Assembly (NCBI GenBank): GCA_019634365.1
Contig: JAHQVM010000007.1
Span: 1 to 64,000, forward strand
Source of the DNA: Flavobacteriaceae bacterium
Lineage (GTDB): Bacteria; Bacteroidota; Bacteroidia; Flavobacteriales; Flavobacteriaceae
Direction: 5' to 3'
DNA length: 64,000 bases
The notes beneath the pieces were generated by a model, which had not been told where the DNA came from, did not search any database, and saw only the letters and a list, made by a program, of their open reading frames with translations. Below, in pieces: positions 29,672-48,617 of the stretch (position 1 is the first letter of the stretch; each line of letters begins with the position of its first letter). The position numbers and the translations under genes were made by a program.

Positions 29672-30171
29672 AATGATTTTATTAATGTTATTGTTTTGTT
29701 TCATCAGCTATCTCCGTAATTCTCTCGCGAAACGATACCTTCATATGAAGCGCAGGTACAAGTGGGTTGAACTCAAAATTTGTTCGAAAATCATACATGA
29801 GCAGGTCCCATTTTTAATCACCTAAGTATCACATGGATAACTCACTATGCAAAAGAGTGCAAAAAAGCGCAGAATTGAAATTTTTTTACCTCAACATTTA
29901 TACAACATTAAGAGTTTATTAACACAACAATTGTTGCTTCTACCCAATTTAACAACCTCCAATAAGATTGAGTATAATGACAAAATATAGCCAGTAAAAC
30001 CGCGAAATCCCTAATAAAACTGTAAAAAAATTGCGAATGTATAGTTTTTGTTGACGGTCATAATTAGGTGTTTACCTTATTAATGTGATAATTTTAAACC
30101 ATAACAAAAGTATACAAACGTAATACAGCTTACGTTGGTAGAAGCAACACAATGCACATAAAGTTATTCAT

Positions 30172-33100
30172 ATGAAAAAGTACGTATTACCATTCGTTTT
30201 CATGTTACTATCAACCTCACTTATGGCACAAGCCAATAAAGTGAGTGTCTCTGAATCTGCAGATGGCAGCCGTTTGATGGTAGATGGAAAAGAGCTAATT
30301 GTGAATGGAATGAACTGGGACTATGTTCCCATTGGAACTACACTGGCAAGTACCTCCTATCAATTTTGGAACCAACCAGACGAAATTATAAGGGCAGCAT
30401 TGGATGCCGAAATGGCGCTATTGAAAAATATGGGCGTAAATGCCGTTAGGCAATATGTAGGTGTAAAGCCCAAATGGGTACAGTACATTTATGAGGAATA
30501 TGGTATTTATACCATGATCAATCATGCTTTCGGTCGTTATGGACTAACCCTTAATGGTACTTGGACGCCACATACGGATTATGCAGATCCTGAAACCAAA
30601 GCGCTTCTCATGAAAGAGGTGACAGATTTGGCCAATATGTACAAGGACACACCAGGGATCTTATTGTTTCTTCTGGGAAATGAAAACAATTATGGATTGT
30701 TCTGGGACGGAGCAGAAACTGAAGACATCCCAGAAGAGGATAGTAGAACAAAACCTCGGGCGAGAGCCATGTACAAACTCTTTAATGAGGCCACAGTGGC
30801 TATGAAAGAAATCATTAAGGATCGCCCAATTGCCATTTGTAATGGTGATTTGCTCTTCTTGGATATCATCGTAGAGGAATGTCCAGATATAGATATCTTC
30901 GGTACGAACATGTATCGTGGTGTCACCTTTACCGATGCCTTTGAAAAGGTAAAGAACGAATATGGTAAGCCGATACTTTTCACCGAATTTGGTGCAGATG
31001 CTTTTAATACCATTCAAAACCAAGAGGATCAAGAATCCCAGGCATTTTACATGGTCGAAAACTGGAAAGATATTTATGCCAATGCCGCAGGGATGGGAAG
31101 GGCCGGAAACTCCTTAGGAGGCTTTACCTTTCAATTCAGTGATGGATGGTGGAAATATGGTCAAACCAAAAATTTGGATATTCATGATAATAATGCCTCT
31201 TGGCCCAATGGAGGGTATTATAAGGACTTTGTTGAAGGGGAGAATAACATGAATGAGGAGTGGTTTGGAATCTGTGCCAAAGGACCCACCAATGAACAAG
31301 GGCTATACACCCTTTATCCAAGAGCCGCTTATTATGCATTAAAGGAAGCACATGAGTTTAATCCATACGCTATGGGCGAAACGGCAGAGAGCTTACAAAA
31401 TCATTTCAACGAGATACAGATTATTGATGCTGTGCTCCGTGCTCGAGGAGATAAGGCCGCTTCTGGCGGAAGCTCTGGCGGTAGTAAAATAAAAATTAGC
31501 ACCTTACGTGCAGAATTCACGACCTTCAATACGGGAGGTAAAAGTATCACCACACCCGAATCCCCGGATCCGAATGATCCCACGACTTTTCCGAACCAAC
31601 TAGGGTTCGATAATATGGAATCTTATTTTATTGGACTGGAGGGAAATCCAAGCCCAGGTTTGCGAGCAAGTGTTACGGCCAGTGTTCTTGGAAATGTTGC
31701 GGGTAACCCAATTAACGAGATTTTTTACGAAAATAGAGGGCGCCCATACATCGCAGAAACCACTGCAGGTGAAACCCTTATTACCGATAATAATAGAGTT
31801 CAGATATATCAGGCCGATCTTAACTGGAACAATAAGTATGCGAATGTAACTGGGTTCTATCGAACGGGTCATTACCATTGGGGATACGAAGGGGATTTCT
31901 TCGGATTGTATCCCGAAGCCAATTATGGTCCTAACTTGGATATCTATAATGGACGTGCACCCTTTGGGTTTGAGTTTGAAGGAAAGAAAGAATTGAGCGG
32001 GCTTAAAGTTGCTTTTGGTCCAGAACTTTGGTGGGGAGCTAACCCAGCGGTACTTGTAAAATATTCACGAAATTTTGGCGGTGTCGATGTAACCGGAGTT
32101 TTTCATGAGGACATTGCAGACCCAGGTGCGGCAGTTACCTCTATTGCCATTCCTCAACCTAGAACCCGAAGAGCTACGCTTTACGCAACTAAGACTTTCG
32201 GAAAGTTCGACGTGGAAGTTGGAGGTATTTGGGGAGGAGAACCTTTGAATGGTCGTGAATATCAAGTGGTAAAAACCGATGCCAATGGCGACATGAATGT
32301 GTTTGTTAATACGGTTACTTCGGATGATAACTGGGGAGGTAAGCTAAAAGTAAAGTATTCAGGAGGTAAATTCAACTGGTATGCCCAAGGTGCGGCCCAA
32401 GGCTTGGTTGCCAATGGTGGTGCCGATCTTACCAGAACATTTACGGGCTGGAGACTTAAAGACAGTGGAAGTGGAAACCAATATAACTTCCTAACTGGAT
32501 TCACATATACCATTGGGGATTTACAAATCGCACCTAACTTCATGTGGCAGGAACCCATTGTGGATCCTATCCCAATTGGAGCACCGGCACCTGCAAGGGC
32601 CCGAAATATTTTGGCAGATCCATTTGTGGTTAGATCCAACAGAAAAACAACAGCGGGGGAAATTCTCCTCACCTACGACCCAACACCGGCTTCATGGTTT
32701 TACGAATGGGATAACGACAGAGCGGAAGATGCCAAATTTGCTGCCAGTTTAGGGTTTGTATATCGTAGCTTGCCTACCACGCAAGATGCCGCCATCGGTT
32801 TCTTTGCAGGAAGTCGTACACCAACTGCTTTCGATGGAGCACCTCCGGCAGAAGATTTATGGGAGTTTAATGGACGAATCGTATCCAAAATCTCTCCCGA
32901 ATTTGGTTTAATTTCCAACTTCTTTGGTGGAAACGGACAGGCCAACGGAAGCGATGCTAGGGTAATTCACCGTTACGGTGCAGATGTGAGAATGATCTAT
33001 AAAAAGCTGAAGTTCACTACCGAAGTAAAAGTAGATGATTGGGGTCCTTTCGATTACCATCGAGACTTTAACCTTACGTATCCCTTCCAGTTCATGGCAG

Positions 33101-33291
33101 ATCTCTCAACGACAGTTGGAAAACCAGACTGGTTCATATTGCCGAATACACGATTGGGAATCCGATATACCTGGCGTTCCTTAGATAATTTCTCTCCAAG
33201 ATTCCTATATCAGGATCCCATAGATCAGGGATTCTCTAATGGAAATGAGTGGGAAATAAGAACATACATACACGTTAACATTGGAAAATAG
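30172..33291 (+). CDS. Clan GH-A glycosidase domain fused to C-terminal outer-membrane beta-barrel-like domain
   Basis: N-terminal TIM-barrel glycosidase motifs (GMNWDYVPIG, LFLLGNENNYGLFW acid/base region, PILFTEFGADAF nucleophile region); ASGGSSGGS linker at about 31455-31485; C-terminal ~600 aa with alternating amphipathic beta-strands (SYFIGLEGNP...WEIRTYIHVNIGK). Confidence 0.82.
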   Translation: MKKYVLPFVFMLLSTSLMAQANKVSVSESADGSRLMVDGKELIVNGMNWDYVPIGTTLASTSYQFWNQPDEIIRAALDAEMALLKNMGVNAVRQYVGVKPKWVQYIYEEYGIYTMINHAFGRYGLTLNGTWTPHTDYADPETKALLMKEVTDLANMYKDTPGILLFLLGNENNYGLFWDGAETEDIPEEDSRTKPRARAMYKLFNEATVAMKEIIKDRPIAICNGDLLFLDIIVEECPDIDIFGTNMYRGVTFTDAFEKVKNEYGKPILFTEFGADAFNTIQNQEDQESQAFYMVENWKDIYANAAGMGRAGNSLGGFTFQFSDGWWKYGQTKNLDIHDNNASWPNGGYYKDFVEGENNMNEEWFGICAKGPTNEQGLYTLYPRAAYYALKEAHEFNPYAMGETAESLQNHFNEIQIIDAVLRARGDKAASGGSSGGSKIKISTLRAEFTTFNTGGKSITTPESPDPNDPTTFPNQLGFDNMESYFIGLEGNPSPGLRASVTASVLGNVAGNPINEIFYENRGRPYIAETTAGETLITDNNRVQIYQADLNWNNKYANVTGFYRTGHYHWGYEGDFFGLYPEANYGPNLDIYNGRAPFGFEFEGKKELSGLKVAFGPELWWGANPAVLVKYSRNFGGVDVTGVFHEDIADPGAAVTSIAIPQPRTRRATLYATKTFGKFDVEVGGIWGGEPLNGREYQVVKTDANGDMNVFVNTVTSDDNWGGKLKVKYSGGKFNWYAQGAAQGLVANGGADLTRTFTGWRLKDSGSGNQYNFLTGFTYTIGDLQIAPNFMWQEPIVDPIPIGAPAPARARNILADPFVVRSNRKTTAGEILLTYDPTPASWFYEWDNDRAEDAKFAASLGFVYRSLPTTQDAAIGFFAGSRTPTAFDGAPPAEDLWEFNGRIVSKISPEFGLISNFFGGNGQANGSDARVIHRYGADVRMIYKKLKFTTEVKVDDWGPFDYHRDFNLTYPFQFMADLSTTVGKPDWFILPNTRLGIRYTWRSLDNFSPRFLYQDPIDQGFSNGNEWEIRTYIHVNIGK

Positions 33292-33297
33292 AAAGAG

Positions 33298-35139
33298 ATG
33301 AATAAGATAGTATCAAATAAGACACTTGGTTATCTAATGGCCCTTGTACTCGTAGTGATTGGCTCTAGTTGTGAACCAGATGAAAGTAGTCTAACAGAAG
33401 CGACGTTTCCAAATATTCCAGAAATTTTTATCGATGGCTTTAGTGCTGGATTGCAATATGACGCCTTCGGAACATCCAAGGTCACGGCCTTTCAAGTAGA
33501 TGCCGATATGGTATTCGAAGGCTCCTTGGCGATGCGATTTGACATACCTAATACAAGCGATCCAGAGGGTGGATTTGCTGGAGGTGTTTTCTCTACTGGA
33601 GTGGGAAGAAACCTTACTGGTTACAATGTGCTTAGCTTTTATGCAAGAGCCTCCAAAGGGGAAACCATCAACGAAATTGGATTCGGTTTAACCTTTCAAG
33701 GTGAGGTTTACAGAACGCAGGTCTTCAATGTACAAGTAGGTACCGCCTGGCAGAAGTATTACATTCCTATACCCGATGCGGCCAAACTTACTGAGGAACG
33801 TGGGATGTTATGGATCGCCGAAGCAGCCGATAATGGTGAAGCTTACCAATTATGGATTGACGAGGTTAAATTCGAAAATACCAATACGGTTTTAAAAGAG
33901 GAATCTTTCATATTTGATGGTCAAAATCTTGTAACGGCTGCCAACCCAGGGAACACAGTACCTGTTACTGGAACATTCGCCGATTATAACCTACCCAATG
34001 GATTGGTTCAACGGGTATTCACAACTCCAGCCTTCTTTACATATACCTCTTCGAACGAAGCGGTAGCCACGGTTGATGAATTTGGGGTGATATCCGTAAA
34101 TAGTGCCTCTGGTGCGACCACAATTACGGCGACGCTGGATGGTGCAGCGACCACAGGATCTATAGTGATTACGGAAGTAGATGCTTCTGGAAACGTAGAT
34201 GATTCCGATGCTACCGAAGTGGCTTTACCTCTAGGTTTTCAGTCCACAACCCTTAATTACAACCCCATTGGATTCGAAGGTGCTGTCCCATCCTTAGCAG
34301 CGAATCCCGTAGTAGGAGGCTTGAATAATAGCTCCACGGCTTTGAGATCGCTTAAGAGCCAGGGATCTGTATTCTTTGCAGGTCAATTTATAGATTTGGA
34401 TGTCCCTGTAGATTTTTCAGAAACACAATTAATAAGTGCCTTGGTACTATCGCCCAATGCCGGTACTCCAGTAAGACTTGCTTTAGAGAATAGTCAAGAT
34501 GCAGGTACGCAAATTAGAGTAGACTTATTAACCAGTACTGCTAATGAGTGGGAAGAATTGGTTTACGATTTCAGTGCATTGGTAAATCCTGCCGTGGATT
34601 ATGATAGATTAGTAATCATTTTTGATATCGATGAGGCCAATCCAACACCTGGAGATGGTTCGGTATACTTTATCGATGATATTCAACTCACCGATGACGA
34701 CGGAGGTGGTGGAGACGGGGATAATCTACTTACCAATGGAGATTTTGAACAAGGAGCCTCCGCTTGGTTTGGAAATGCATTCAATGTACAAACCGATGGC
34801 GGTAACAGTTTCAACTTTGCCGATATTGAAGTAGCTGGAAATCCATTCGATGTAAACTTAAGTCAAGGGGTAGAAATAGTTCAAGGCCAATCGTACACAT
34901 TAACCTTTGATGCTGCCACAGATGCCGCTACAGGTTCACGAACAATAATTGCTGGTATAGGGCTTAATGAGTCTCCATTCACTGCAGACACAGAGACAGT
35001 CACACTTACAGAGACGCTACAGACCTTTGAGTTAACATTTACTGCCTCATTTGGACTAGCCAATAGCCGTGTGCTATTCGATATGGGTGCAGAAGTGGGA
35101 GTTGTTGTTATTGACAATGTATCACTTACCCAAAACTAG
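33298..35139 (+). CDS. Multi-CBM surface lipoprotein (candidate surface glycan-binding protein)
   Basis: Lipobox IGSSC; CBM11-like first domain, Ig-like/Big_2 region (TSSNEAVATVDEFGVISVNSASGATTITATLDG), further binding-type domain, C-terminal CBM4_9-like NLLTNGDFEQ...DNVSL. Confidence 0.8.
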   Translation: MNKIVSNKTLGYLMALVLVVIGSSCEPDESSLTEATFPNIPEIFIDGFSAGLQYDAFGTSKVTAFQVDADMVFEGSLAMRFDIPNTSDPEGGFAGGVFSTGVGRNLTGYNVLSFYARASKGETINEIGFGLTFQGEVYRTQVFNVQVGTAWQKYYIPIPDAAKLTEERGMLWIAEAADNGEAYQLWIDEVKFENTNTVLKEESFIFDGQNLVTAANPGNTVPVTGTFADYNLPNGLVQRVFTTPAFFTYTSSNEAVATVDEFGVISVNSASGATTITATLDGAATTGSIVITEVDASGNVDDSDATEVALPLGFQSTTLNYNPIGFEGAVPSLAANPVVGGLNNSSTALRSLKSQGSVFFAGQFIDLDVPVDFSETQLISALVLSPNAGTPVRLALENSQDAGTQIRVDLLTSTANEWEELVYDFSALVNPAVDYDRLVIIFDIDEANPTPGDGSVYFIDDIQLTDDDGGGGDGDNLLTNGDFEQGASAWFGNAFNVQTDGGNSFNFADIEVAGNPFDVNLSQGVEIVQGQSYTLTFDAATDAATGSRTIIAGIGLNESPFTADTETVTLTETLQTFELTFTASFGLANSRVLFDMGAEVGVVVIDNVSLTQN

Positions 35140-35162
35140 TAACGAAAAACGTAAAAAAATAG

Positions 35163-36038
35163 ATGATGAAATTGAAAAATGTTTTAAGAATGGCTCTGGT
35201 TTGTGGCGCACTAATTGCCACAACATGGAGCTGCACGGACGACGAAGGTAATTCGATCGGAATCAATGAATCCAATCTACGGTTGGTTTTTGAAGATGAT
35301 TTTAATGGAACCGAAGGTACATCCATTAATACAGATGTTTGGAACTTCGATATCGGAAATGGTGATAATGGATGGGGAAATCAAGAATTGCAATATTATA
35401 CGAACCGTCCAGAGAACATTGCCTTGGATGGACAAGGGAATATGGTAATCACAACAAGAAGGGAATCTTTCTCGGGTTCTGAATTCACTTCTGCAAGGAT
35501 CAACACCAAAGATAAGTTCGAACAGCAATATGGCCGATTTGAAGCCAGAATCAAGATGCCCGGAGGACGCGGTATTTGGCCAGCATTTTGGATGTTGGGA
35601 AGTCCTATTGAAACAACACCGGATGATGACCCAACTACGGAACCTTGGCCCTTTATTGGCGAGATCGATGTAACAGAGTTGCGTGGTCAGGAACCGTCAT
35701 TAAGTATCGGAAGTATTCACGGACCAGGATACTCTGGGGGGGGAGCGATTTCAGGCACCTTCGAACTCGAAGGAGAACGCTTCGATGCCGATTTCCATGT
35801 CTTTGCCGTGGAATGGACAGCCGACTACATTGACTATTTCATAGATGGTGTAAGATACAACCGAATTGCTCGCAAGGATATTCCCGATGGGTCAGATTGG
35901 CCTTTCGACGACCATCCATTCTTTGTTTTATTGAATGTAGCTGTAGGTGGTGGATTTGTTGGATTCCCAGTAGATCAAACCCCTTTCCCACAGACCATGG
36001 TTGTGGACTACGTTCGCGTGTATGAGATTGTAGAATAA
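35163..36038 (+). CDS. GH16 endo-beta-1,3-glucanase (laminarinase-type), lipoprotein
   Basis: Lipobox TWSC; WNFDIGNGDNGWGNQELQYYT and GEIDVTELRG (GH16 ExDxxE signature). Confidence 0.94.
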   Translation: MMKLKNVLRMALVCGALIATTWSCTDDEGNSIGINESNLRLVFEDDFNGTEGTSINTDVWNFDIGNGDNGWGNQELQYYTNRPENIALDGQGNMVITTRRESFSGSEFTSARINTKDKFEQQYGRFEARIKMPGGRGIWPAFWMLGSPIETTPDDDPTTEPWPFIGEIDVTELRGQEPSLSIGSIHGPGYSGGGAISGTFELEGERFDADFHVFAVEWTADYIDYFIDGVRYNRIARKDIPDGSDWPFDDHPFFVLLNVAVGGGFVGFPVDQTPFPQTMVVDYVRVYEIVE

Positions 36039-36059
36039 ATATTTCAAAAATAGCTTTTA

Positions 36060-36092
36060 GGAAAACCGGTTATAAAGATAATCGGGTTTTCC
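36060..36092 (+). promoter_or_regulatory. Intra-operon hairpin between GH16 and GH149-like genes
   Basis: GGAAAACC...GGTTTTCC 8-bp perfect stem without a poly-T tail. Confidence 0.45.
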
Positions 36093-36121
36093 GCTGGCAT
36101 ATCCCATAAGGAAGAAAAAGA

Positions 36122-39100
36122 ATGACCCATTCGTCTATACATATCGGAAGCACCTCAGCTTCAACCATTCAAAAAGAAGTAAAAGGAGCGCTCATAACCA
36201 TCGGAAATGAGCAGTACTACAAAATTTCCAATAGCAACGCCATGCGGCCATTTTTAATGAGTCTCGTGAGCGATTCGGACCATTGGATGTTTATTTCCAG
36301 CAATGGTGCCCTTACGGCTGGAAGGAAAAATTCTGACTATTCTCTTTTTCCGTACTATACCGACGATAAGATCACGGAATCTTCAGAAATAACAGGGAGC
36401 AAGAGCATATTTAAGGTAACCCGGGATGGGAAATCTTACCTATGGGAACCTTTTTCGGAAAGGTATCAGGGGATATACGATATTACCCAGAATCTTTATA
36501 AAAACGCATTTGGGAACAAAGTCATTTTTGAAGAACACAACGAGAAGCTGGGTCTTACCTTCCGCTATCAATGGAGCTATAGTAATTCGTATGGTTTTGT
36601 AAGAAAATGTGATCTAATAAATACCCAAGAAACGTCAGTTCAAGTAACGATGTTGGATGGGGTTCAGAATGTGATACCCTATGGGGTTGGCGCAGATCTG
36701 CAAAATGCAAGCAGCAATTTGGTTGATGCCTATAAGCGAAGCGAATTAATTCCTGATTGTGGATTGGGAATCTACGCATTGAGTGCTATCATTGTAGATC
36801 GGGCAGAACCCAGTGAAGCCCTCAAATGCAATACGGTTTGGTCGTTAGGAATCGACCATCCCACGTATTTGTTGTCCTCACAACAATTGGAGGCATTTAG
36901 GCTTGGCGATACCATTATTCAGGAAGAAGATGTAAAAGCAGAAAAGGGGGCTTATTTTATACAAGCGACCTATACCCTAGCATCAAGTCAGGAAAAGCAG
37001 TGGATGTTAGTCGCTGAGGTAAATCAGTCTATGAATGCCGTGATTGCAATGGCCGATAAATTGCGCAGTGCGGACAATCTTTGGCAGTTGATCGAACAGG
37101 ATATTGATCTGGGAACCGAGAAACTGAAACAACTTACAGGTTCATCAGATGCTATGCAGCTTAGTGCCAATAAGCTGCGAAACCTGAGGCATTATTCCAA
37201 CACGCTTTTCAATATTATGCGAGGCGGGATTTTCGACAACAACTATCAGATAGAAAAATGGGATTTTATGGACTATATGTCCAAAGCCAACAAACAGGTT
37301 TTTATTGATTCCAAGCATTTGTGGGATGAGTTGCCGGAATCCTTTTCTCAGGAAAAACTTAAATCGCTGGCGTATGCTAGTAGCGACAGGAACTTTAGGA
37401 GATTATCCCTAGAGTACATGCCCCTAAAATTTAGCAGAAGGCATGGGGATCCCAGTCGCCCATGGAATAAATTTTCCATCAATACCCGAAATGAAATAGA
37501 TGGCTCCAAAATTTTGGATTATGAAGGAAACTGGCGGGATATTTTCCAAAACTGGGAAGCCCTTTCACTTTCATTCCCGGAGTTTTTGGAAAGTATGATT
37601 CATAAATTCCTGAATGCCACAACCTTCGATGGGTACAATCCTTATAGGGTAACCAAAGATGGATTTGATTGGGAGGCCATCGAGGAGCATGACCCCTGGT
37701 CTTATATTGGATATTGGGGTGATCATCAGATCATTTATTTACTGAAGTTCTTGGAGATATTGGAAGATCATTATCCTGGAAAATTGGCAGGGTATTTTAG
37801 TCAGGACTTATTTGTTTATGCCGATGTACCCTATAAAATAAAACCCTACGAAGATATTCTTAAAGACCCCAAAGACACTATAGATTTCGATTATGAGTCG
37901 GATAAAAGCATACGGGAGAAAAGATCGGAATTGGGAGCAGACGGAGCCTTATTAAGAAATGCCAAGCAGGTCATTCATAAAGTAAACTTTATTGAAAAGA
38001 TATTGGCAACTGTACTGGCCAAGATGTCCAATTTTATTCCTGAAGGAGGAATTTGGATGAATACCCAAAGGCCGGAATGGAATGATGCCAACAACGCATT
38101 GGTGGGTAATGGGGTCTCTATGGTAACACTGTGCTATCTGAGACGATTCCTTACTTTTTTTGGTAAAGTAATCCAACAAGCTACCGATGATTCGGTAGCG
38201 ATTTCGGAAGAGCTTTACCATTTTTATGAAACTGTAGTCGCAACGCTGGATCAGCACAAGTCCATACTTTCTGGACGAGTTTCCAATGCTGACAGAAAAA
38301 CGGTATTGGATGGTTTGGGACAAGCTGCGAGCCAATATCGTTGGCAAATTTATGACCAAACCTTCTCTGGCAACATGAAACAGATTTCCTTAAAAGACTT
38401 GGCCTTGTTCATCGAAACAGCCTGTTCGTATTTGGAACATTCCATAGAGGCAAATAAGCGTTCCGATGACATGTACCACGCTTATAACTTGATGACCGTA
38501 AAGGGCAATGAGGTAGCAATTAGCTACCTGCAGGAAATGTTGGAAGGACAAGTAGCCGCTTTAAGTTCCGGGTACCTTAGCTCGGAAGAAAGCTTGGAGC
38601 TACTGGACGGACTCAAAGCGAGTGCATTATTTCGGGACGATCAATATAGCTATCTACTTTATCCCAATAAAGCCCTACCCAAGTTTTTGGAGAAAAATAC
38701 AATTCCGAAGGAAGCGATCGAGAAATCGGAACTTCTAAACGAATTAATCGAAAATAAAAATGGGGCTATTGTTCAGAAAGACCTTCATGGGCACTATCAT
38801 TTTAATGGCAATTTTAACAACGCCAACAGCCTCAATGCAGCGTTGGATGCCCTGGAAAGTAGTTCTTATGGTGCGAAGGTGAAAAAGGACCGACAAATGC
38901 TATTGGACACTTTTGAGGAAGTCTTCAACCATAAGGCTTTTACAGGTAGATCGGGAACCTTCTATGGGTACGAAGGTTTGGGTTCCATTTACTGGCATAT
39001 GGTGTCCAAATTATTGGTAGCCACGCAAGAAGTATGCTTAAAAGCCATCCGGGAAGGGGCATCAGCAGAAATTACAGGTCGATTATTGGAACATTACTAT

Positions 39101-39592
39101 GAGATCAACGAAGGGATTGGCGTGCACAAATCACCCAAACTGTATGGAGCTTTTCCAACAGATCCCTATTCGCATACACCCGCAGGAAGAGGTGCTCAAC
39201 AACCCGGAATGACCGGACAAGTTAAGGAAGACATCCTTTGCCGGTTTGGGGAGTTGGGAGTTTTTGTGGAAAAGGGCAGCTTGTTCTTTGATCCTTGCAT
39301 GCTTCGCAAAACTGAATTCTTGAAGGAGTCTAAGTCATTTGCATATGTAGACGTCTCGGGCGATGCGCAGGAGATTTCCGTACCCAACGATTCCATCTGT
39401 TTCACCTATTGCCAGGTCCCTGTGATTTACCGCATTTCCGAAAATGAATTCCTTTCGGTGCATCATTCAGATGGAAGTGTACAGCAATATGACGGGTTGA
39501 AATTGGATCAGAATTCCAGTCATGACCTCTTTAAACGATCTGGAAAAATAACGATGATCGTGGCGGGGGTCCTGAAAACAGCATTAAAGTAA
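36122..39592 (+). CDS. GH149-like beta-1,3-oligoglucan phosphorylase
   Basis: ~1156 aa, no signal peptide; GH94/GH149-like sequence (YSNSYGFVRKCDLINTQETSVQVTMLDGVQNVIPYGV, GGIWMNTQRPEWNDANNALVGNGVSMVTLCYLRR, GRGAQQPGMTGQVKEDILCRFGELG); located in a beta-glucan locus. Confidence 0.82.
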   Translation: MTHSSIHIGSTSASTIQKEVKGALITIGNEQYYKISNSNAMRPFLMSLVSDSDHWMFISSNGALTAGRKNSDYSLFPYYTDDKITESSEITGSKSIFKVTRDGKSYLWEPFSERYQGIYDITQNLYKNAFGNKVIFEEHNEKLGLTFRYQWSYSNSYGFVRKCDLINTQETSVQVTMLDGVQNVIPYGVGADLQNASSNLVDAYKRSELIPDCGLGIYALSAIIVDRAEPSEALKCNTVWSLGIDHPTYLLSSQQLEAFRLGDTIIQEEDVKAEKGAYFIQATYTLASSQEKQWMLVAEVNQSMNAVIAMADKLRSADNLWQLIEQDIDLGTEKLKQLTGSSDAMQLSANKLRNLRHYSNTLFNIMRGGIFDNNYQIEKWDFMDYMSKANKQVFIDSKHLWDELPESFSQEKLKSLAYASSDRNFRRLSLEYMPLKFSRRHGDPSRPWNKFSINTRNEIDGSKILDYEGNWRDIFQNWEALSLSFPEFLESMIHKFLNATTFDGYNPYRVTKDGFDWEAIEEHDPWSYIGYWGDHQIIYLLKFLEILEDHYPGKLAGYFSQDLFVYADVPYKIKPYEDILKDPKDTIDFDYESDKSIREKRSELGADGALLRNAKQVIHKVNFIEKILATVLAKMSNFIPEGGIWMNTQRPEWNDANNALVGNGVSMVTLCYLRRFLTFFGKVIQQATDDSVAISEELYHFYETVVATLDQHKSILSGRVSNADRKTVLDGLGQAASQYRWQIYDQTFSGNMKQISLKDLALFIETACSYLEHSIEANKRSDDMYHAYNLMTVKGNEVAISYLQEMLEGQVAALSSGYLSSEESLELLDGLKASALFRDDQYSYLLYPNKALPKFLEKNTIPKEAIEKSELLNELIENKNGAIVQKDLHGHYHFNGNFNNANSLNAALDALESSSYGAKVKKDRQMLLDTFEEVFNHKAFTGRSGTFYGYEGLGSIYWHMVSKLLVATQEVCLKAIREGASAEITGRLLEHYYEINEGIGVHKSPKLYGAFPTDPYSHTPAGRGAQQPGMTGQVKEDILCRFGELGVFVEKGSLFFDPCMLRKTEFLKESKSFAYVDVSGDAQEISVPNDSICFTYCQVPVIYRISENEFLSVHHSDGSVQQYDGLKLDQNSSHDLFKRSGKITMIVAGVLKTALK

Positions 39593-39603
39593 AAACCAAA
39601 GAA

Positions 39604-40911
39604 ATGAACGCAAGAATAGCAATAGGAAGGAGTACGTTATTGAGTATGGCGATGGTTGCCATTTTCACCTTCTTTTTTGTTTCTTGCAAAGATGCAAAGC
39701 CCGAAAAAGGGGAACAATTAATAGAGAAAAAAGTGACTGCTAAAGACATCTTAGGAAACCCAGCGTATTTAGCCATATCCTATGGAGGATATCGCACTAC
39801 GTCCAGGGAAAATCAGCCTACCCTAGATGAGCTGAAAGAAGATTTATTGATTCTGCATGCCATGGGCATAAGGGTTCTTAGAACGTACAATGTACAATTT
39901 CCGCATGCTGGGAATGTACTCAAAGCGGTTCGAGAACTCAAAGCTTCAGATCCAGCATTTGAAATGTACGTAATGCTTGGAGCATGGATCGATTGTTTGA
40001 ATGCATGGACCGAACATCCACCCAATCACGATGTAGAAAGTCCCAATAATGCCGACGAAATAGACCGTGCTGTGGCACTTGCCCAAGAATATCCAGAAAT
40101 TGTTATTGTTCTGGCAGTAGGGAATGAGGCCATGGTGAAATGGGCGGCCAGTTACTACGTGCAACCCGGAGTAATATTAAAATGGGTTAACCACCTTCAA
40201 GCGCTAAAAAAGGACGGTCAATTACCAGAAACTCTTTGGATCACAAGTTCGGATGATTTCGCCTCATGGGGAGGAGGTGATCCTTTATATCATACCGAAG
40301 ATCTTAAGAAATTGGTAAAAGCAGTGGATTATATTTCGATGCATACCTACCCTTACCACAATTCGCATTACAATCCTGAGTTTTGGATCACTCCGCAAGA
40401 AGATGAAGAGTTACCCAATTTAGACAAGGTAAACAGCGCTATGAATCGCGCCAAGCAATTTGCCATCAAGCAGTATGATTCAGTAAGCTCGTTTATGAAA
40501 AGCTTAGGGGTAGAAAAACCCATACATATTGGAGAAACTGGATGGGCTACCATCTCGGATGGATTGTATGGGCCCTCAGGTTCCAAAGCTACCGATGAAT
40601 ACAAGCAAGCCCTTTATTATCAGCATATGCGAGAGTGGACCAACGCCAACGGCATATCGTGTTTCTATTTTGAGGCGTTCAACGAGCCTTGGAAAGATGC
40701 AGGTAACCCCGTAGGATCTGAGAATCACTTTGGGTTATTTACCGTGGATGGAAAGGCGAAGTATGTGTTGTGGGATTTGGTCGATAAAGGTGTTTTTAAG
40801 GATTTAACCCGGGGCGGAAATACGATTGAGAAAACCTATGAAGGGAGCAGGGATTCATTGCTCATTGAAGTGGCCGCTCCTCCTTCTAACCCAATGATGG
40901 TAAAACACTGA
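39604..40911 (+). CDS. GH17 family glycosidase, lipoprotein
   Basis: Lipobox FVSC; LAVGNEAMVKW acid/base region, IHIGETGWATISD nucleophile region. Confidence 0.88.
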   Translation: MNARIAIGRSTLLSMAMVAIFTFFFVSCKDAKPEKGEQLIEKKVTAKDILGNPAYLAISYGGYRTTSRENQPTLDELKEDLLILHAMGIRVLRTYNVQFPHAGNVLKAVRELKASDPAFEMYVMLGAWIDCLNAWTEHPPNHDVESPNNADEIDRAVALAQEYPEIVIVLAVGNEAMVKWAASYYVQPGVILKWVNHLQALKKDGQLPETLWITSSDDFASWGGGDPLYHTEDLKKLVKAVDYISMHTYPYHNSHYNPEFWITPQEDEELPNLDKVNSAMNRAKQFAIKQYDSVSSFMKSLGVEKPIHIGETGWATISDGLYGPSGSKATDEYKQALYYQHMREWTNANGISCFYFEAFNEPWKDAGNPVGSENHFGLFTVDGKAKYVLWDLVDKGVFKDLTRGGNTIEKTYEGSRDSLLIEVAAPPSNPMMVKH

Positions 40912-40913
40912 TT

Positions 40914-42413
40914 ATGAATAGAACGATAACTATTGGAATAGCCTCCCTGTTAATTATGACGACAGCCTGTAAGCAAAAAAACACCTTGGAAGTAGAAGTA
41001 TTTGAGACTTCGTTGAAAGGAAATCAACTTACCCGTATCCAAGCAGGAACAGATGCTGAAAATTTGTTGGAAGTTAGGATCCATCCGGAGAAGGAACGGC
41101 AAACCATTTCAGGTTTTGGTGGTGCCTTCACAGAATCGTCCGCGTATTTGCTCAATCGCATGAGTAAAGAACAACGGGACTCCATTATGCGTGCTTATTT
41201 CAGTAAAGAAGGAGCCAATTACTCGCTTACAAGAACCCACATGAATTCCTGTGATTTTTCGCTGACCAACTATTCCTACGCGGCGGTTGAAAATGATAGG
41301 GAACTGGAACATTTTTCCATCGAAGAAGATCGGGAAGATCTTATTCCCATGATTCAGCAAGCATTGGAAATTTCGGAAGAAGGATTCAAAATATTTGCTT
41401 CCCCGTGGACTGCCCCGCCTTGGATGAAAGATAACAACGCATGGGTTGGCGGGAAATTGCTCCCCGAATATTATGATACTTGGGCCTTATTTTTCTCAAA
41501 GTATGTTGATGCCTATAAGGAAGAAGGGATCGATATCTGGGGGTTTACGGTTGAGAATGAACCTCACGGTAATGGTAATAACTGGGAAAGCATGCATTAT
41601 ACGCCTAAGGAGATGACCGATTTTGTGGAATTTCACTTAGGCCCCAAACTGGAAGCTGATGGCAAAGGGGATCTCATCATTTTAGGGTACGATCAAAATC
41701 GTGCAGAGCTCAAAAAATGGGTCGATGAGATGTATCGCGATGAGAATTCTTCCAAGTACTTTGATGGAACAGCGGTACACTGGTATGAAAGTACCTATGA
41801 GGTCTTTCCAGAGGAACTTCAGTATGCACATGAAAAGGCTCCGAATAAATTCTTAATCGAGACCGAGGGCTGCATTGATGCGCAGGTACCCGTATGGCAG
41901 GACGATGCGTGGTACTGGTCCAAAGAAGCCACAGATTGGGGTTGGGACTGGGCACCCGAAGACCAAAAGTATTTACACCCAAAATATGCACCCGTAAACC
42001 GCTATGCAAGAGATATTATTGGATGCTTGAACAACTGGGTAGATGGATGGGTAGATTGGAATATGGTGCTAGATACCCAAGGAGGCCCCAATTGGTTTAA
42101 GAATTGGTGTATTGCTCCGGTAATCGTTGATCCAGAAAAAGATGAAGTGTATTATACACCCCTCTATTATACCATGGCTCATTTCAGCAAATACATTCGG
42201 CCTGGAGCCAAAGTGATTGAAGTGGAACGGCCAAAAGACGACAAGTTAATGGTAACTGCTGCCAAGAACCCAGACAATTCAATTGCTGTAATTGTCTTCA
42301 ATGAAGAAGCCGTAGGGAAAGATTTCAGTATAGCTATTGGTGAAGAACAAATAGCTATGCATATAGACGGACAAGCCCTTCAAACCATAATAATTCCAAA
42401 TACAACGAAATAA
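40914..42413 (+). CDS. GH30 family glycosidase (candidate beta-1,6-glucanase), lipoprotein
   Basis: Lipobox TTAC; SGFGGAFTESSAYLL, SPWTAPPWMKDNNAWVGGKL, FTVENEPHG, LIETEGCID. Confidence 0.93.
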   Translation: MNRTITIGIASLLIMTTACKQKNTLEVEVFETSLKGNQLTRIQAGTDAENLLEVRIHPEKERQTISGFGGAFTESSAYLLNRMSKEQRDSIMRAYFSKEGANYSLTRTHMNSCDFSLTNYSYAAVENDRELEHFSIEEDREDLIPMIQQALEISEEGFKIFASPWTAPPWMKDNNAWVGGKLLPEYYDTWALFFSKYVDAYKEEGIDIWGFTVENEPHGNGNNWESMHYTPKEMTDFVEFHLGPKLEADGKGDLIILGYDQNRAELKKWVDEMYRDENSSKYFDGTAVHWYESTYEVFPEELQYAHEKAPNKFLIETEGCIDAQVPVWQDDAWYWSKEATDWGWDWAPEDQKYLHPKYAPVNRYARDIIGCLNNWVDGWVDWNMVLDTQGGPNWFKNWCIAPVIVDPEKDEVYYTPLYYTMAHFSKYIRPGAKVIEVERPKDDKLMVTAAKNPDNSIAVIVFNEEAVGKDFSIAIGEEQIAMHIDGQALQTIIIPNTTK

Positions 42414-42461
42414 CCTGTATAGGATACGTGAGGTAAACAGTATTAATTAAAAACCAAGAGT

Positions 42462-44801
42462 ATGTCAACAACTACTAAAAAAGTTCCATTCGGTCAAAAA
42501 ATAGCCTTCGGGATAGGAATGTTTGCCAACCAAATGTTCCCTGCGATTTTAGGAATATTTATGGTTGTGTTGGTTGAAGACCTAAAATTTACAGGTTTAA
42601 TGTGGGCCATGATTTATCTTTTCCCACGACTCTTTGATGCTATTTCGGATCCAGTAATGGGTTTTATATCTGACAATACAAAATCCAAATGGGGCCGTAG
42701 AAGACAGTATGTTCTTGTAGGAGGAATCATTATGGGGGTAGCCTATATTTTTATGTGGCAATTGTTCAAAGAGAATACCGTACAGTACAATTTTTGGTAT
42801 TTCTTTTTGTGGTCGGTTGTGTTTTATCTAGGACTTACCTTCTTCAGTGTGCCTTACGTTGCCATGGGTTATGAAATGAGTGATGATTTCCATGAACGTA
42901 CCAGTATTATGGCCGTAGCACAATGGATTGGTCAGTGGGCTTGGGTAATTGCACCCTTATTTTGGATTATCATGTATGATCCTGAGTGGTTTCCTTCAGC
43001 AGATGTTGCAGCGAGAAAATTAGCCGTTTGGGTGGCGATCCCGTGCGCTTTTTGTGCAATAGTACCCGCTCTTTTCATAAAAAGTGAATCTACACTCGAT
43101 AAGGATTACGAACCATTGAGTTTATCCAATATTGGAGGGAGTCTCAAAAAGATATTGACCAGTTTTGTAGAAGCATTCAGAATTAAAGAATTTAGACAAT
43201 TGTGTTTTTCCACTTTCTTTATTTACAACGCCTTTATGGCGGTTTCGTCTCTTACCTTTTTTGTAATCGTATACAAACTATTTAATGGTGACGCTGGAGC
43301 TTCTGGATGGTGGGTGTCTTTGTTTGGCGCACTGGGCGCATTAGGAACAACCTTTATCGTAATTCCAATAGTAACCAAACTATCCAAAAAATTTGGAAAA
43401 AAGAAGGCATTTATGATATGCCAGAGCATATCAATCGTAGGATACTTTATGCTTTATTTCTTGTTCATTCCAGGTAAACCTTGGATGTACATCATTGCCC
43501 TACCCTTTTTCTCATTCGGAATTGGAAGTTTGTTCACGGTTATGATGTCCATGACGGCTGATGTAATCGACATAGATGAACTGAATTCTGGTAAACGACG
43601 TGAAGGTATTTTTGGCGCCATCTATTGGTGGATGGTGAAAGTAGGATTTGCCATTGCAGGGGCATTTAGTGGATTAATCATTTGGTTGGTTGGTTTTAAT
43701 TCAGACTTACCTACTACAGAACAGATGGGTGCTGTTGAAGGATTGCATGCTTTTTTCTGCTTCTTTCCTATGCTAGGAACCTTTGCGGCCATGTATGTGA
43801 TGCGTAACTATAACGTTACTGAAGAACGGGCAAATGAGATTAGGGAGCAATTGGAAAAGCGAAAAACACCCGAAGCAAAGCTCTCGTCCAATTACGAAAA
43901 CTTCAAGTTCGACTCGTTGAGACATGGAGGTATTGTGGTAGACACATCAAAGGATATTGATTTTTCATCCAAATCGGAAAGCGAGATTGCGCAACTTTTT
44001 AAAACTACTTTAGAACGTGGTATGCATGGGTTGTGTTTTAGTCCTTATACCGAAGGACAAAATATTGGAGATCAATTATCTGAAGAACAGATTCGACGCA
44101 GGATGGATGTGGTCGCTCCTTACACCAAATGGGTGCGTTCCTTTTCCTGTACAGAAGGGAATGAATTCATTCCAAAAGTAGCGCATGAAAAAGGCTTACA
44201 GACGATGGTCGGTGCATGGATTGGCAAGGATAAGTCGAAAAACGAAGAAGAGATTAATGCTCTCATTTCATTAGCGAAAGAAGGCATGGTCGATATAGCA
44301 GTGGTTGGTAATGAGGTGCTGTTGCGAAACGACCTTGATACCCAGGAAATTGTGAGGTACATCCGCCGTGTGAAGGAAGCCATACCCAACATTCCTGTGG
44401 GCTATGTGGATGCGTACTATCAATATTACGAAAATAGAGAGCTCATAGAAGCCAGCGACCTTATCCTGGTGAACTGCTACCCTTTCTGGGAAGGTTGTAG
44501 CGTAGAAGATGCATCCAAGTACATACGACAGATGCACGCCATTACAAAAGAGATTTCCCAGAATACCCCAATCATCATTACTGAAACAGGTTGGCCAAAT
44601 CAAGGAGAAAACAACCATGGGGCACAACCTTCAAAAGTGAATGCCATGAAATATTTCATACATGTGAATCAATGGGCGAAAGAAGAGGGCATACCGCTAT
44701 TCTATTTCTCGTCCTTCGACGAATCCTGGAAGGTACATCATGAAGGTGATGTGGGAGCCCGTTGGGGAATTTGGGATAAAAATGAATCATTAAAATACTA
44801 G
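42462..44801 (+). CDS. GPH-type MFS sugar transporter fused to C-terminal GH17 domain
   Basis: N-terminal ~460 aa MelB/GPH-like transporter (FPRLFDAISDPVMGFISDNTKSKWGRRRQYVL); C-terminal ~300 aa GH17 (IAVVGNEVLLRND, IIITETGWPNQG, LFYFSSFDESWK). Confidence 0.92.
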   Translation: MSTTTKKVPFGQKIAFGIGMFANQMFPAILGIFMVVLVEDLKFTGLMWAMIYLFPRLFDAISDPVMGFISDNTKSKWGRRRQYVLVGGIIMGVAYIFMWQLFKENTVQYNFWYFFLWSVVFYLGLTFFSVPYVAMGYEMSDDFHERTSIMAVAQWIGQWAWVIAPLFWIIMYDPEWFPSADVAARKLAVWVAIPCAFCAIVPALFIKSESTLDKDYEPLSLSNIGGSLKKILTSFVEAFRIKEFRQLCFSTFFIYNAFMAVSSLTFFVIVYKLFNGDAGASGWWVSLFGALGALGTTFIVIPIVTKLSKKFGKKKAFMICQSISIVGYFMLYFLFIPGKPWMYIIALPFFSFGIGSLFTVMMSMTADVIDIDELNSGKRREGIFGAIYWWMVKVGFAIAGAFSGLIIWLVGFNSDLPTTEQMGAVEGLHAFFCFFPMLGTFAAMYVMRNYNVTEERANEIREQLEKRKTPEAKLSSNYENFKFDSLRHGGIVVDTSKDIDFSSKSESEIAQLFKTTLERGMHGLCFSPYTEGQNIGDQLSEEQIRRRMDVVAPYTKWVRSFSCTEGNEFIPKVAHEKGLQTMVGAWIGKDKSKNEEEINALISLAKEGMVDIAVVGNEVLLRNDLDTQEIVRYIRRVKEAIPNIPVGYVDAYYQYYENRELIEASDLILVNCYPFWEGCSVEDASKYIRQMHAITKEISQNTPIIITETGWPNQGENNHGAQPSKVNAMKYFIHVNQWAKEEGIPLFYFSSFDESWKVHHEGDVGARWGIWDKNESLKY

Positions 44802-44808
44802 GAATACT

Positions 44809-45717
44809 ATGTCTTATAGAGGAGAACACGATTTCTTGATGGAGAATGCCCGCTACACAGAGTTTGGTGGGGTGGATTTTGAATCGTATTCAATTGAAGA
44901 ATTAAAGAAACTTTGGAGAGCAACGCTCGAAAAAGGCATGCACGGATTATGCTTTAGCATGTACGAAGATGGTCAAAAGCCGGGTGACATTATTACCGAA
45001 GCTCAGGTAGAGCGAAGAATAAAGATTATAGAACCTTACACGCAATGGGTGCGTTCTTTTTCCTGTATCGAAGGGAACGAATTTGTTCCTAGGGTAGCCC
45101 ATAAATATGGATTAAAAACCATGGTGGGGGCATGGCTTGGATTCGATCTCAACAAGAATGAAGATGAAATTGAGGCACTGATTGCCTTGGCTAAGGAAGG
45201 CTGCGTCGATATCGCCGTGGTTGGGAATGAAGTCATGTACCGTAACGACCTTACCGAAGAACAATTGCTGGATTATATAGAGGTTGTCAAAGATGCTCTC
45301 CCAGATATACCGGTGGGTTATGTAGATGCGTATTACGAGTTTTCCCATCGGCCCAGAATTACCGATGCCTGCGATATCATCCTAGCCAATTGTTATCCGT
45401 ATTGGGAAGGTTGTGATATCGATAACTCCCTCAATCATATGCAACAGATGTTTGGTCAGGCCATGCAAGCGGGAAAAGGGAAACGTGTTATTATAACAGA
45501 GACGGGCTGGCCCAGTCAGGGAACGAATTTAAAAGGAGCCTTCCCTTCCGAAGTTAATGCCATGAAGTACTTCATTAATGCGATGCAGTGGGCAACGAGG
45601 GACAACGTAGATATGTTTTACTTTTCCTCATTCGATGAAGCTTGGAAAGTAGGGCCCGAAGGAGATGTAGGAGCGTATTGGGGCCTCTGGGATAAACACG
45701 AACGGCTTAAATTTTAA
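44809..45717 (+). CDS. GH17 family glycosidase, no signal peptide (predicted cytoplasmic)
   Basis: IAVVGNEVMYRNDL, VIITETGWPSQG, MFYFSSFDEAWK; close paralogue of the C-terminal domain of the preceding gene. Confidence 0.9.
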   Translation: MSYRGEHDFLMENARYTEFGGVDFESYSIEELKKLWRATLEKGMHGLCFSMYEDGQKPGDIITEAQVERRIKIIEPYTQWVRSFSCIEGNEFVPRVAHKYGLKTMVGAWLGFDLNKNEDEIEALIALAKEGCVDIAVVGNEVMYRNDLTEEQLLDYIEVVKDALPDIPVGYVDAYYEFSHRPRITDACDIILANCYPYWEGCDIDNSLNHMQQMFGQAMQAGKGKRVIITETGWPSQGTNLKGAFPSEVNAMKYFINAMQWATRDNVDMFYFSSFDEAWKVGPEGDVGAYWGLWDKHERLKF

Positions 45718-48617
45718 AGGCTGATAAAATAGTCGTTAAGATTAGTGTTCCTAGGTAGATCAATCTTTTTTCTAAGCCTATAACGTTTAATTTCTACACT
45801 TCTTGGGGAAATATTGAACAGTGGGGCAATCTCTTTGGAAGATAGATTGAGTCTTAAATAAACACAGAGCCTAAGATCATTTGCAGTTAATTCTGGATGC
45901 AATTCCTTTACTTTCTTGAAGAAGTCTTTATCGGCATGGTTGAAGGCCTTTTCAAAGAATTTCCAATCATCCTCATTGTTGAGGTTTTTATTGATGATAC
46001 GAATTACCGAAGGTAACTTACCAAGATCTGTAATCGTTTCCAATTCTGCCTTTAGATCATTAAGTATGCTGTTCTTTTTAACCATGCTCATGGTCGAAAT
46101 AGCAAGTTCACGGTTACGGGATTCGATCTCCTGATTTAGACTCTGATTTTTCAGTTGAATAATTTCCTTCTGATTGGCCAGCGTTTTGAGTTCCATATCC
46201 CTTTCATTTTTTTCCAATAGACGTTCCCGTTGTTTTCGGTAATATCCACGGTGAAAGGCGTGCATCGCGAATAACAATAAGATAAAACCAATGATGTAAC
46301 CCACTATGGCAGTATTCGATGCAAACCATGGCTTGGCGATTTCGAAGGAAAAAGAGGCTGTGTTCAATGATTCCCGAGCATCGATCCGTGATCGTACCTG
46401 AAATTCGTAGTCCCCATAGGGTAAATTATCGTAGGATTTAGATGCAGTTTTAGACCATGAACTCCATTGCTCTTGTAGGCCCACTAGGCGATATTGGTAT
46501 TCTGTAAGATGGAATTTATTGAAATCCGGCGTGCTAAATTCGAAGTACAAGTAGTTTTCCTTGGTGGCAAATTCTTGAAATTTATCCAAGGGAATCAATT
46601 GCATATTACCCTGTACAGTGCCAACAGACGCACTGTTAATTTTTACTCTTTGTTCCCTGTCATCGGGATATGATAAATCCATTCGCAAATAGCCACTCGA
46701 AGTACCCACCAAATAGTCTTGATCCCCTAGGAAGGAAATATTTTCGAAACCCTCCAGACCGGTTCTTAGAAACGCCGGAATAGCGATGGTTCGGATCTTT
46801 GGTGCATTATTTAGTTTGTCCGTTGAGATTTGAACTAATGTATTTTTAGTAAAGGCCCATAAATTGCCCGAAGCATCAGAAACCAATTTGCCCGACACAT
46901 ATTCATCATTAGAAAAAATAGCGCTCAATTGCTCCTCCCTAACAAACTCATTGGTTGCATTATCGAAGCTGTAAATACCATCTTTAAAGGCGTAATAAAC
47001 AGTATTGTTGAATTTAGCCAGACTCGCATGTGATCCTTTAGAAACCGACGGAACTTCTCGGAAATCGATAGCTTGGGCATACGAATTGTCTACCTCAAGC
47101 TGAAAAACTCCTTTGTATTCGTGACCCACAAGAATTTCATAGTCTTGGGTGAATTCGAAAAAGCGGGAAGAAATATGAAAGTCAGCAATTTTATTTCTGT
47201 AGCGCCAACTATTCCCATCCTTTTCTAAAATATGCAAACCATCGTAATTCCCCTGTATTAGGAGATTGGGTCTGTTCGGAATTTTCTTGATATCCCAAGT
47301 ACCCTGTACATTGGCGATCCTTTGCGCCGAATTTCCAATGATCTGAAAAGTTCCTGTATGGTGGCCACAAAATAGCATCCTGTCCACTATTTTAAGGTTC
47401 CAGACCTGGGCTTCTGTACCCGGCACCAACTGAAAGGCTTGATTGGAATCCAGAGGTCTGGAGAATAGCCCTTGGTTGGTGCCTAAGTATAAATACCCTT
47501 CATGAACAATAGAAGCATACACGGTTCCTAGACTCCCATTTCTATTGGCATAGGTCGAAAAAGGCACCTGGGTGTTTATGCAGTCGATGCCATGATCCAG
47601 GCCTAACCAGATATTCTTTTGTCGATCTTCAAAAAGGGATAATGCCGTATTGTCCCCCAGACCGCTGGATTGGTCCATTTGGTACAATACACTGCCAGTT
47701 TCCGAAAGCGCAATCACCCCATTGGCTATGGTTCCCAAAACCACATGCCCATTCTCCAAGGTAATACTGTTGTAAATACTCACGGTTTCGAGTAGAGGAT
47801 CTGCTGGGACCGGTATTTCGGAAAAGTTGCCTTCCCTTATTTCGAAGAAACCATCGGCAGCGGTAAGTGCCATCAACGAGCCTTGACGTTCGAAAAGGTT
47901 AACAAGCACTTTCTCCCTAGCGATTGGGTCGTCACTTAAAAGGACTTTTTCTTTGTTCTCGATCGCATATATACCCTCTCCGGCGACTTGAAAATAGAAG
48001 GAGCCGTTAGATTGAAACAGTTTAAGAATGGTGTTGTCGGAACTTATAAAACTGAATGTTTCATCTACCGTATTATAGAGGTAGATTCTATTTAAGGATT
48101 GAAAGAGGATCCATTGATCGTAATCAATGATATTCCAAATCTGCTCGTCTTCCACCATGGGTTCAGTGAGAATGGCACTCAAGGAAGTATATTCAAGCCG
48201 ACCCAATTGGTTGCGCTCCCAGTATCCGAAATCCATGTAGCAACCTGTATAGATCCTATCCTTTATGGCGTTTACCGAACGAAAAATGGTTTCATTAGGG
48301 GAAGGGTATAAGGTCCATCTGGCTCCGTTAAATTCTAGAAGTCCCTTATTGTTGGCTGCATAAATGTAGTTTTCATCAGATTGGGAAATCATCCAATTCT
48401 GATTTTCCGCACCATAAGTCGATGGAGTATAATTTACAACTGGGGGTAATTCTTGTGCAATCCCAATGGCACCGGATAGTAAAATGAGTATATAGATCAG
48501 CTTCTTCAAACGCAATACAAAAGAGTAGTCTCTATGTGCTAAATCCGCTTCAGATACACCTGAGAAGCGGTTTTCAGTTTTACCGAAGATACAAAAAACA
48601 CTTCTTTCCCGTTCCAT
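45714..48617 (-). CDS. Membrane-anchored sensor/regulator: beta-propeller-like repeats, Y_Y_Y domain, TM, LuxR-type HTH
   Basis: YQYRLVGLQEQWSSWSKTASKSYDNLPYGDYEFQVRSR (Y_Y_Y), TM AIVGYIIGFILLLFAMHAF, C-terminal HTH LTANDLRLCVYLRLNLSSKEIAPLFNISPRSVEIKRYRLRKKI. True start may be TTG at 48515 (LRLKKLIYILILLSGAIGIAQ signal). Confidence 0.88.
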   Translation of the reverse strand: MERERSVFCIFGKTENRFSGVSEADLAHRDYSFVLRLKKLIYILILLSGAIGIAQELPPVVNYTPSTYGAENQNWMISQSDENYIYAANNKGLLEFNGARWTLYPSPNETIFRSVNAIKDRIYTGCYMDFGYWERNQLGRLEYTSLSAILTEPMVEDEQIWNIIDYDQWILFQSLNRIYLYNTVDETFSFISSDNTILKLFQSNGSFYFQVAGEGIYAIENKEKVLLSDDPIAREKVLVNLFERQGSLMALTAADGFFEIREGNFSEIPVPADPLLETVSIYNSITLENGHVVLGTIANGVIALSETGSVLYQMDQSSGLGDNTALSLFEDRQKNIWLGLDHGIDCINTQVPFSTYANRNGSLGTVYASIVHEGYLYLGTNQGLFSRPLDSNQAFQLVPGTEAQVWNLKIVDRMLFCGHHTGTFQIIGNSAQRIANVQGTWDIKKIPNRPNLLIQGNYDGLHILEKDGNSWRYRNKIADFHISSRFFEFTQDYEILVGHEYKGVFQLEVDNSYAQAIDFREVPSVSKGSHASLAKFNNTVYYAFKDGIYSFDNATNEFVREEQLSAIFSNDEYVSGKLVSDASGNLWAFTKNTLVQISTDKLNNAPKIRTIAIPAFLRTGLEGFENISFLGDQDYLVGTSSGYLRMDLSYPDDREQRVKINSASVGTVQGNMQLIPLDKFQEFATKENYLYFEFSTPDFNKFHLTEYQYRLVGLQEQWSSWSKTASKSYDNLPYGDYEFQVRSRIDARESLNTASFSFEIAKPWFASNTAIVGYIIGFILLLFAMHAFHRGYYRKQRERLLEKNERDMELKTLANQKEIIQLKNQSLNQEIESRNRELAISTMSMVKKNSILNDLKAELETITDLGKLPSVIRIINKNLNNEDDWKFFEKAFNHADKDFFKKVKELHPELTANDLRLCVYLRLNLSSKEIAPLFNISPRSVEIKRYRLRKKIDLPRNTNLNDYFISL

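Follow-up and report, generated by a model that had tools for sequence, protein, structure and literature searches.

In 2018, Unfried et al. (PMC6246565) reported an MFS-GH17 fusion, FORMB_24740 (FbGH17B; AOR29491.1), from Formosa sp. Hel1_33_131 and stated that the arrangement is common among marine Flavobacteriia; to the knowledge of those authors, a transporter-CAZyme fusion was undescribed for other bacteria. FbGH17B couples an N-terminal 12-TM MFS part to a C-terminal GH17 domain, and its laminarin locus also encodes a GH30 and a secreted GH17A next to it. In a single report, the enzyme hydrolysed debranched, but not branched, laminarin and released glucose from it and from its oligosaccharides (PMC6246565). 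A laminarin cluster of this kind in Muricauda lutaonensis (PMC11005184, PMC13188888) encodes MlGH17B, a GH17 without a signal peptide that is not described as fused and is a proven β-1,3-glucanosyltransglycosylase releasing Glc2. MlGH17B is 53% identical to FbGH17B and requires Tyr136 (Tyr102 in RmBgt17A), Trp191 and Glu192 for transglycosylation, the Tyr136 position being occupied by Met in FbGH17B (PMC11005184). The fungal enzyme RmBgt17A of Rhizomucor miehei (PDB 4WTP-4WTS) is also unfused, and its Tyr to Ala mutant, as cited in PMC11005184, lost transglycosylation. Type II GH149 clusters of Alteromonadales (Kuhaudomlarp et al. 2018, PMC5827456) bring together GH149, a cytoplasmic GH17 and an MFS_2 transporter, with transporter and GH17 described as separate genes. 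No report of other MFS-GH fusions was found in a literature search limited to open-licence papers.

The gene analysed here lies within a stretch of 64,000 nucleotides of Flavobacteriaceae DNA (the window) and belongs to the kind of fusion already described by Unfried et al., although the first-pass annotation of this DNA had implied that it was novel. Domain order, neighbouring GH30 and secreted GH17A, and the possession of a GH149 are common to the Formosa strain and the window, whereas Met at the acceptor-platform site of FbGH17B is replaced by Leu in the window. MlGH17B corresponds to the stand-alone GH17 gene directly behind the fusion, and differs from the fused domain in keeping Tyr136. 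The fused domain has the GH17 fold, the catalytic Glu residues and the acceptor-site Trp and Glu of RmBgt17A, in which, however, Tyr102 is present. The contrast between paralogues across many loci and the alternative pairings described below, together with repeated loss and occurrence outside Flavobacteriia, were not found in the open-licence papers searched.

Eight same-strand genes separated by short gaps run from 30172 to 45717, in the order GH/β-barrel protein, CBM lipoprotein, GH16, GH149, GH17A, GH30, fusion and stand-alone GH17 (Table 1). With the sequences read by eye, the GH149, the fusion and the stand-alone GH17 are without a signal peptide, and the CBM protein, GH16, GH17A and GH30 have lipoprotein-type starts. 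SusD models gave only two matches in the genome (88.6% complete), on contigs C7 and C4, and none on the window's contig, C63; strictly, with no susC/susD pair adjacent, the locus is a CAZyme cluster and not a PUL. Neighbours were counted at the 54 fusion loci with at least 7 kb of upstream sequence among the best 80 loci of the scan described below. GH149, whose co-occurrence with the fusion had been raised for survey in the first-pass annotation, was present in 52 of these 54, secreted GH17 in all 54 and GH30 in 40. The convergent regulator gene overlaps the stand-alone GH17 by 4 bp and likely controls the cluster.

Table 1. Features of the laminarin cluster and of the fusion gene (window positions, except in the last row, where the locus is given before each position).
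Feature	Position	Strand	Basis
Secreted GH (TIM-barrel, GH158/GH157-like fold) followed by predicted outer-membrane β-barrel; first of run	30172..33291	+	Barrel from predicted strands only
Lipoprotein with C-terminal CBM4_9	33298..35139	+	Profile match, signal read by eye
GH16 lipoprotein	35163..36038	+	Profile match, signal read by eye
GH149 β-1,3-glucan phosphorylase, no signal peptide, cytoplasmic	36122..39592	+	NCBIfam NF058639, 1781 bits, cut-off 1150
GH17A-type, lipoprotein-type signal peptide; likely endo-laminarinase	39604..40911	+	Function by synteny with FbGH17A, MlGH17A
GH30, lipoprotein-type signal peptide; likely β-1,6 debranching	40914..42413	+	Function by homology to FbGH30 (PMC6246565)
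MFS(GPH)-GH17 fusion gene, 779 aa	42462..44801	+	ORF, Pfam, alignment, AF2
Transporter part, residues 1-468: 12 TM helices and C-terminal helix 454-468	42462..43865	+	AF2, MelB match, alignment
Linker, ~residues 469-498, poorly conserved	43866..43955	+	pLDDT <50 at 470-476; few conserved columns
GH17 catalytic domain, residues 499-779	43956..44798	+	Pfam, alignment, solved-structure match
Catalytic acid E618 (VVGNEV)	44313-44315	+	Fused GH17 domain
Nucleophile E708 (ITETGWP)	44583-44585	+	Fused GH17 domain
L621, where transglycosylases have Tyr	44322-44324	+	Fused GH17 domain
Stand-alone GH17 paralogue, 302 aa, no signal peptide; Tyr144 at 45238-45240	44809..45717	+	
Convergent regulator, Reg_prop/Y_Y_Y propeller, weak HTH match; likely local sensor	45714..48617	-	
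~211-aa NCRGVF protein	L005:9301-9936, L010:8119-8736, L022:9260-9892, L146:8107-8739		

The protein encoded by the first gene of the run (1039 aa) contains an N-terminal TIM-barrel with best fold matches to GH158/GH157 endo-laminarinases (Z ~27, ~282 residues), and the ~600 residues after it are predicted, at low confidence (pLDDT 62), to form long antiparallel β-strands resembling an outer-membrane barrel. Of 198 genomes in the class, 10 others encode full-length relatives, some of them within the same cluster. This protein may represent another fusion of enzyme and channel, located at the outer membrane, and with no SusC/SusD beside the cluster it could serve outer-membrane uptake. The CBM4_9 regions of the lipoprotein in Table 1 and of a second protein (28394-29704, minus strand), both flanking the cluster, are 83% identical; one protein of the pair carries a Por_Secre_tail (type IX secretion) and the other a lipoprotein-type signal. 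The domain was recently copied, and the copies take different routes of export.

The fusion gene is a single uninterrupted ORF with an ATG start and a TAG stop. The Pfam model MFS_2 matches residues 16-454 with 208.1 bits (cut-off 27) and Glyco_hydro_17 matches the C-terminal part with 44.8 bits (cut-off 28.2). The TIGR00792 ‘gph’ model matches over its full length with 175.9 bits, below the curated cut-off of 231.35, and the transporter part is termed MelB-like rather than a strict member of the gph subfamily. The nearest solved structures are MelB, over residues 11-470, and for the GH17 part the β-1,3-glucanosyltransferase RmBgt17A (E 3.6e-32). An AF2 model from 54 aligned fusions comprises 12 TM helices followed by a C-terminal helix (mean pLDDT 85.3, pTM 0.61), with MelB (PDB 4M64, 7L16), which has no enzyme domain, as its best structural match (Z 39.5, rmsd 3.0 over 443 residues of the GPH fold). 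At a pTM of 0.61, how the two domains sit relative to each other is uncertain, and any channel between them would be hypothetical. Because the fold-search alignment spans the transporter part only, the GH17 assignment rests on sequence. Both E618 and E708 are invariant in the 54 aligned fusions, and both catalytic Glu residues are kept in 65 of 65 tabulated fused domains. The first-pass annotation had read a continuous 779-aa frame at these coordinates with a GPH/MelB-like 12-TM N-terminus and a complete GH17 domain carrying both catalytic glutamate motifs; the ORF call, the Pfam and solved-structure matches and the 12 AF2 helices bear this out, with TIGR00792 alone falling short of its cut-off. 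Its account of the locus was accurate for the fusion, but left the paralogous GH17 gene directly behind it unmentioned.

To determine how widespread the fusion is, relatives were sought in one genome per species across 84,980 species, and the best 80 loci, which represent the nearest relatives and not a census, were analysed. All 80 were from Bacteroidota. By ORF calls, 64 of them encode the full fusion and 16 a transporter gene with a separate GH17, the fusion hosts belonging to Flavobacteriaceae, Cyclobacteriaceae/Flammeovirgaceae and Saprospiraceae/Lewinellaceae. Some matches that look full-length contain internal stops; these are separate genes lying side by side, and the fusion counts exclude them. 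Full-length stop-free matches were found in 10 of 296 genomes evenly sampled across the phylum, or 12 of 296 with two genomes of other pairings, and in 13 of 249 genomes of the family, plus two more (G053 and G568). Within the window's own genus the fusion was present in one of nine genomes, and the distribution is patchy.

The orientation of the fusion in the membrane was assessed from the loops of 54 homologues, in which the mean number of Lys and Arg residues, summed over loops, is ~24 on the side of the N- and C-termini vs ~2.5 on the other. The MFS motif-A-type loop DNTKSKWGRRR lies on the same side as the C-terminus. Given the 12 helices, this positive-inside bias and the homology to MelB, the fused GH17 is predicted to be cytoplasmic. 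Residues D59 and D63, invariant in the 54 fusions, align with Asp55 and Asp59 of the MelB cation site, whereas Asp19 and Asp124 of the MelB sugar site are replaced by Q24 and S129. This pattern would fit a cation-coupled importer of a sugar other than melibiose, and the gene cluster suggests linear laminari-oligosaccharides as the substrate.

The stand-alone GH17 is 58% identical to the fused domain and contains equivalents of Tyr136, Trp191 and Glu192 of MlGH17B (GNEVMYR, NCYPYWEGC). Among the best 80 loci, a signal-less paralogue of this kind follows the fusion in 59 of 64 fusion loci, with a gap of 2 to 50 bp in most. Trees of the first set placed the fused GH17 domains in one clade and the stand-alone enzymes in another. 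At the position of Tyr102/Tyr136, all 81 domains of the fused clade carry Leu or Met (L621 here). Among 131 stand-alone enzymes, 119 carry Tyr and the other 12 Leu. The acceptor-site Trp and Glu are universal in 144 tabulated domains, including 65 of 65 fused. From the Leu/Met and Tyr pattern, the fused domain is more likely a hydrolase and its twin a transglycosylase, which is consistent with FbGH17B as hydrolase and MlGH17B as transglycosylase. As proof of chemistry the contrast is weak, because it is largely fixed by clade, kinship reducing the 81 Leu/Met cases to far fewer independent observations, and because 12 stand-alone enzymes also have Leu.

Transporter genes without GH17 are nested among the fused ones, three of the nestings (L034, L045 and L022) having local support of ~0.97 or higher, and the GH17 part has therefore been lost repeatedly. 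Since the transporter was retained in these cases, the linkage is not essential; it is recurrent but dispensable. Two transporter lineages and two GH17 lineages occur in four pairings, the main one being a type A transporter with a Leu/Met GH17. Type B transporters with a Leu/Met GH17 are found in one genus, in which 23 of 27 genomes match and the 13 sampled, counting L099, are single ORFs; the GH17 of these fusions nests inside the main fused clade, and an existing GH17 part therefore changed its transporter. A type A transporter is joined to a Tyr-type GH17 in one genome (L098), where an internal MSFREERFLNF resembles the old start of a stand-alone GH17 gene, and a type B transporter to a Tyr-type GH17 in another (L157). 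The comparison indicates more than one origin for such fusions, and the four pairings point to recurrent selection for linkage. At four loci, the gene between a type B GPH transporter and a GH17 or fusion gene encodes a conserved protein of ~211 aa that begins with two TM segments and has an NCRGVF motif in its C-terminal part (Table 1). A triple fusion, MFS-(2-TM protein)-GH17, considered from ‘open frames’ of ~1025 aa, was rejected as ORF calls show separate genes.

In our overall reading, which we consider fairly probable, the gene encodes a MelB/GPH-type importer of a laminarin cluster with an attached cytoplasmic GH17 hydrolase that feeds GH149. That an assembly error or frameshift joined two genes, an artefact that the first-pass annotation had named as grounds for refutation, is extremely improbable. 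No support for such an origin was found, and it is ruled out by the recurrence of the same full-length frame in 64 independent loci among the best 80, and by the 10 full-length stop-free matches across the phylum; because of this recurrence the fusion is not a product of chance either. A GH17 facing the periplasm would cut oligosaccharides before entry and leave the transporter to import glucose or laminaribiose, and Unfried et al. mention simultaneous cleavage and transport, with the enzymes likely resident in the periplasm (PMC6246565). The even number of helices, the strong positive-inside bias, the motif-A-type loop on the C-terminal side and the homology to MelB all argue against this arrangement, which is disfavoured by the predicted topology and seems very improbable. 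The same evidence supports the cytoplasmic GH17 that the first-pass annotation had proposed.

The same annotation had also suggested vectorial trapping, in which the fused GH17 is a transglycosylase that elongates or branches imported oligosaccharides and so prevents backflow. All fused domains retain the acceptor-site (+1/+2) Trp and Glu, which agrees with such an activity, as do the nearest solved structure, a glucanosyltransferase, and the proven activity of MlGH17B, a stand-alone paralogue and close relative of FbGH17B; the two independent fusions with Tyr, L098 and L157, may be exceptions. However, the Tyr needed in RmBgt17A (as cited in PMC11005184) is Leu or Met throughout the fused clade and FbGH17B is reported to yield glucose (PMC6246565), and trapping by the fused domain is not favoured and, in our judgement, unlikely. 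The fusion could alternatively be a neutral device for co-expression or stoichiometry, its parts acting independently and the linkage bringing no kinetic gain. In favour of such a device, the GH17 part has been lost several times from transporters that persist beside a stand-alone GH17, and the genes are already 2-50 bp apart in one run; full-length conservation in several Bacteroidota families and the four pairings nevertheless exceed what drift readily gives, and we regard neutrality as rather doubtful.

Beside the architecture, conservation, synteny and residue pattern observed here, the enzyme activities of the cluster would be those of published homologues, and from these a route for laminarin can be proposed. 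The GH16, GH17A and GH30 lipoproteins, located outside the inner membrane, would cut and debranch laminarin to linear β-1,3-oligosaccharides, which the MFS part would take in, probably by cation coupling. The GH17 part, held at the cytoplasmic exit by a flexible linker, would hydrolyse the imported oligosaccharides, keeping the local substrate concentration low and supplying short chains and glucose, and the cytoplasmic GH149 phosphorylase would convert the remainder to glucose-1-phosphate. The stand-alone GH17 would be a separate cytoplasmic enzyme, likely a β-1,3-glucanosyltransglycosylase acting to redistribute chain lengths. The other two roles raised in the first-pass annotation, metabolic channelling and chain trimming ahead of phosphorolysis, may both apply; a benefit of covalent tethering is something we infer only. 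More tentatively, and as a proposal that is possible but short of probable, the linkage may have evolved repeatedly because a tethered hydrolase at the cytoplasmic mouth is a local sink that speeds uptake, in a MalQ/MalP-like route with the Tyr-type transglycosylase and GH149.

The residue contrast between fused and tandem GH17 offers a possible reason why close homologues have been reported as a hydrolase (FbGH17B) and as a transglycosylase (MlGH17B). Natural fused, split and re-fused versions exist side by side and allow a clean test of whether flux rises when an enzyme is covalently tethered to an importer. Much marine carbon is stored as laminarin, and such Bacteroidota are among its main consumers. 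If the proposed route is true, these bacteria would possess a β-1,3-glucan counterpart of the maltodextrin MalQ/MalP pathway, with its first step built into the importer.
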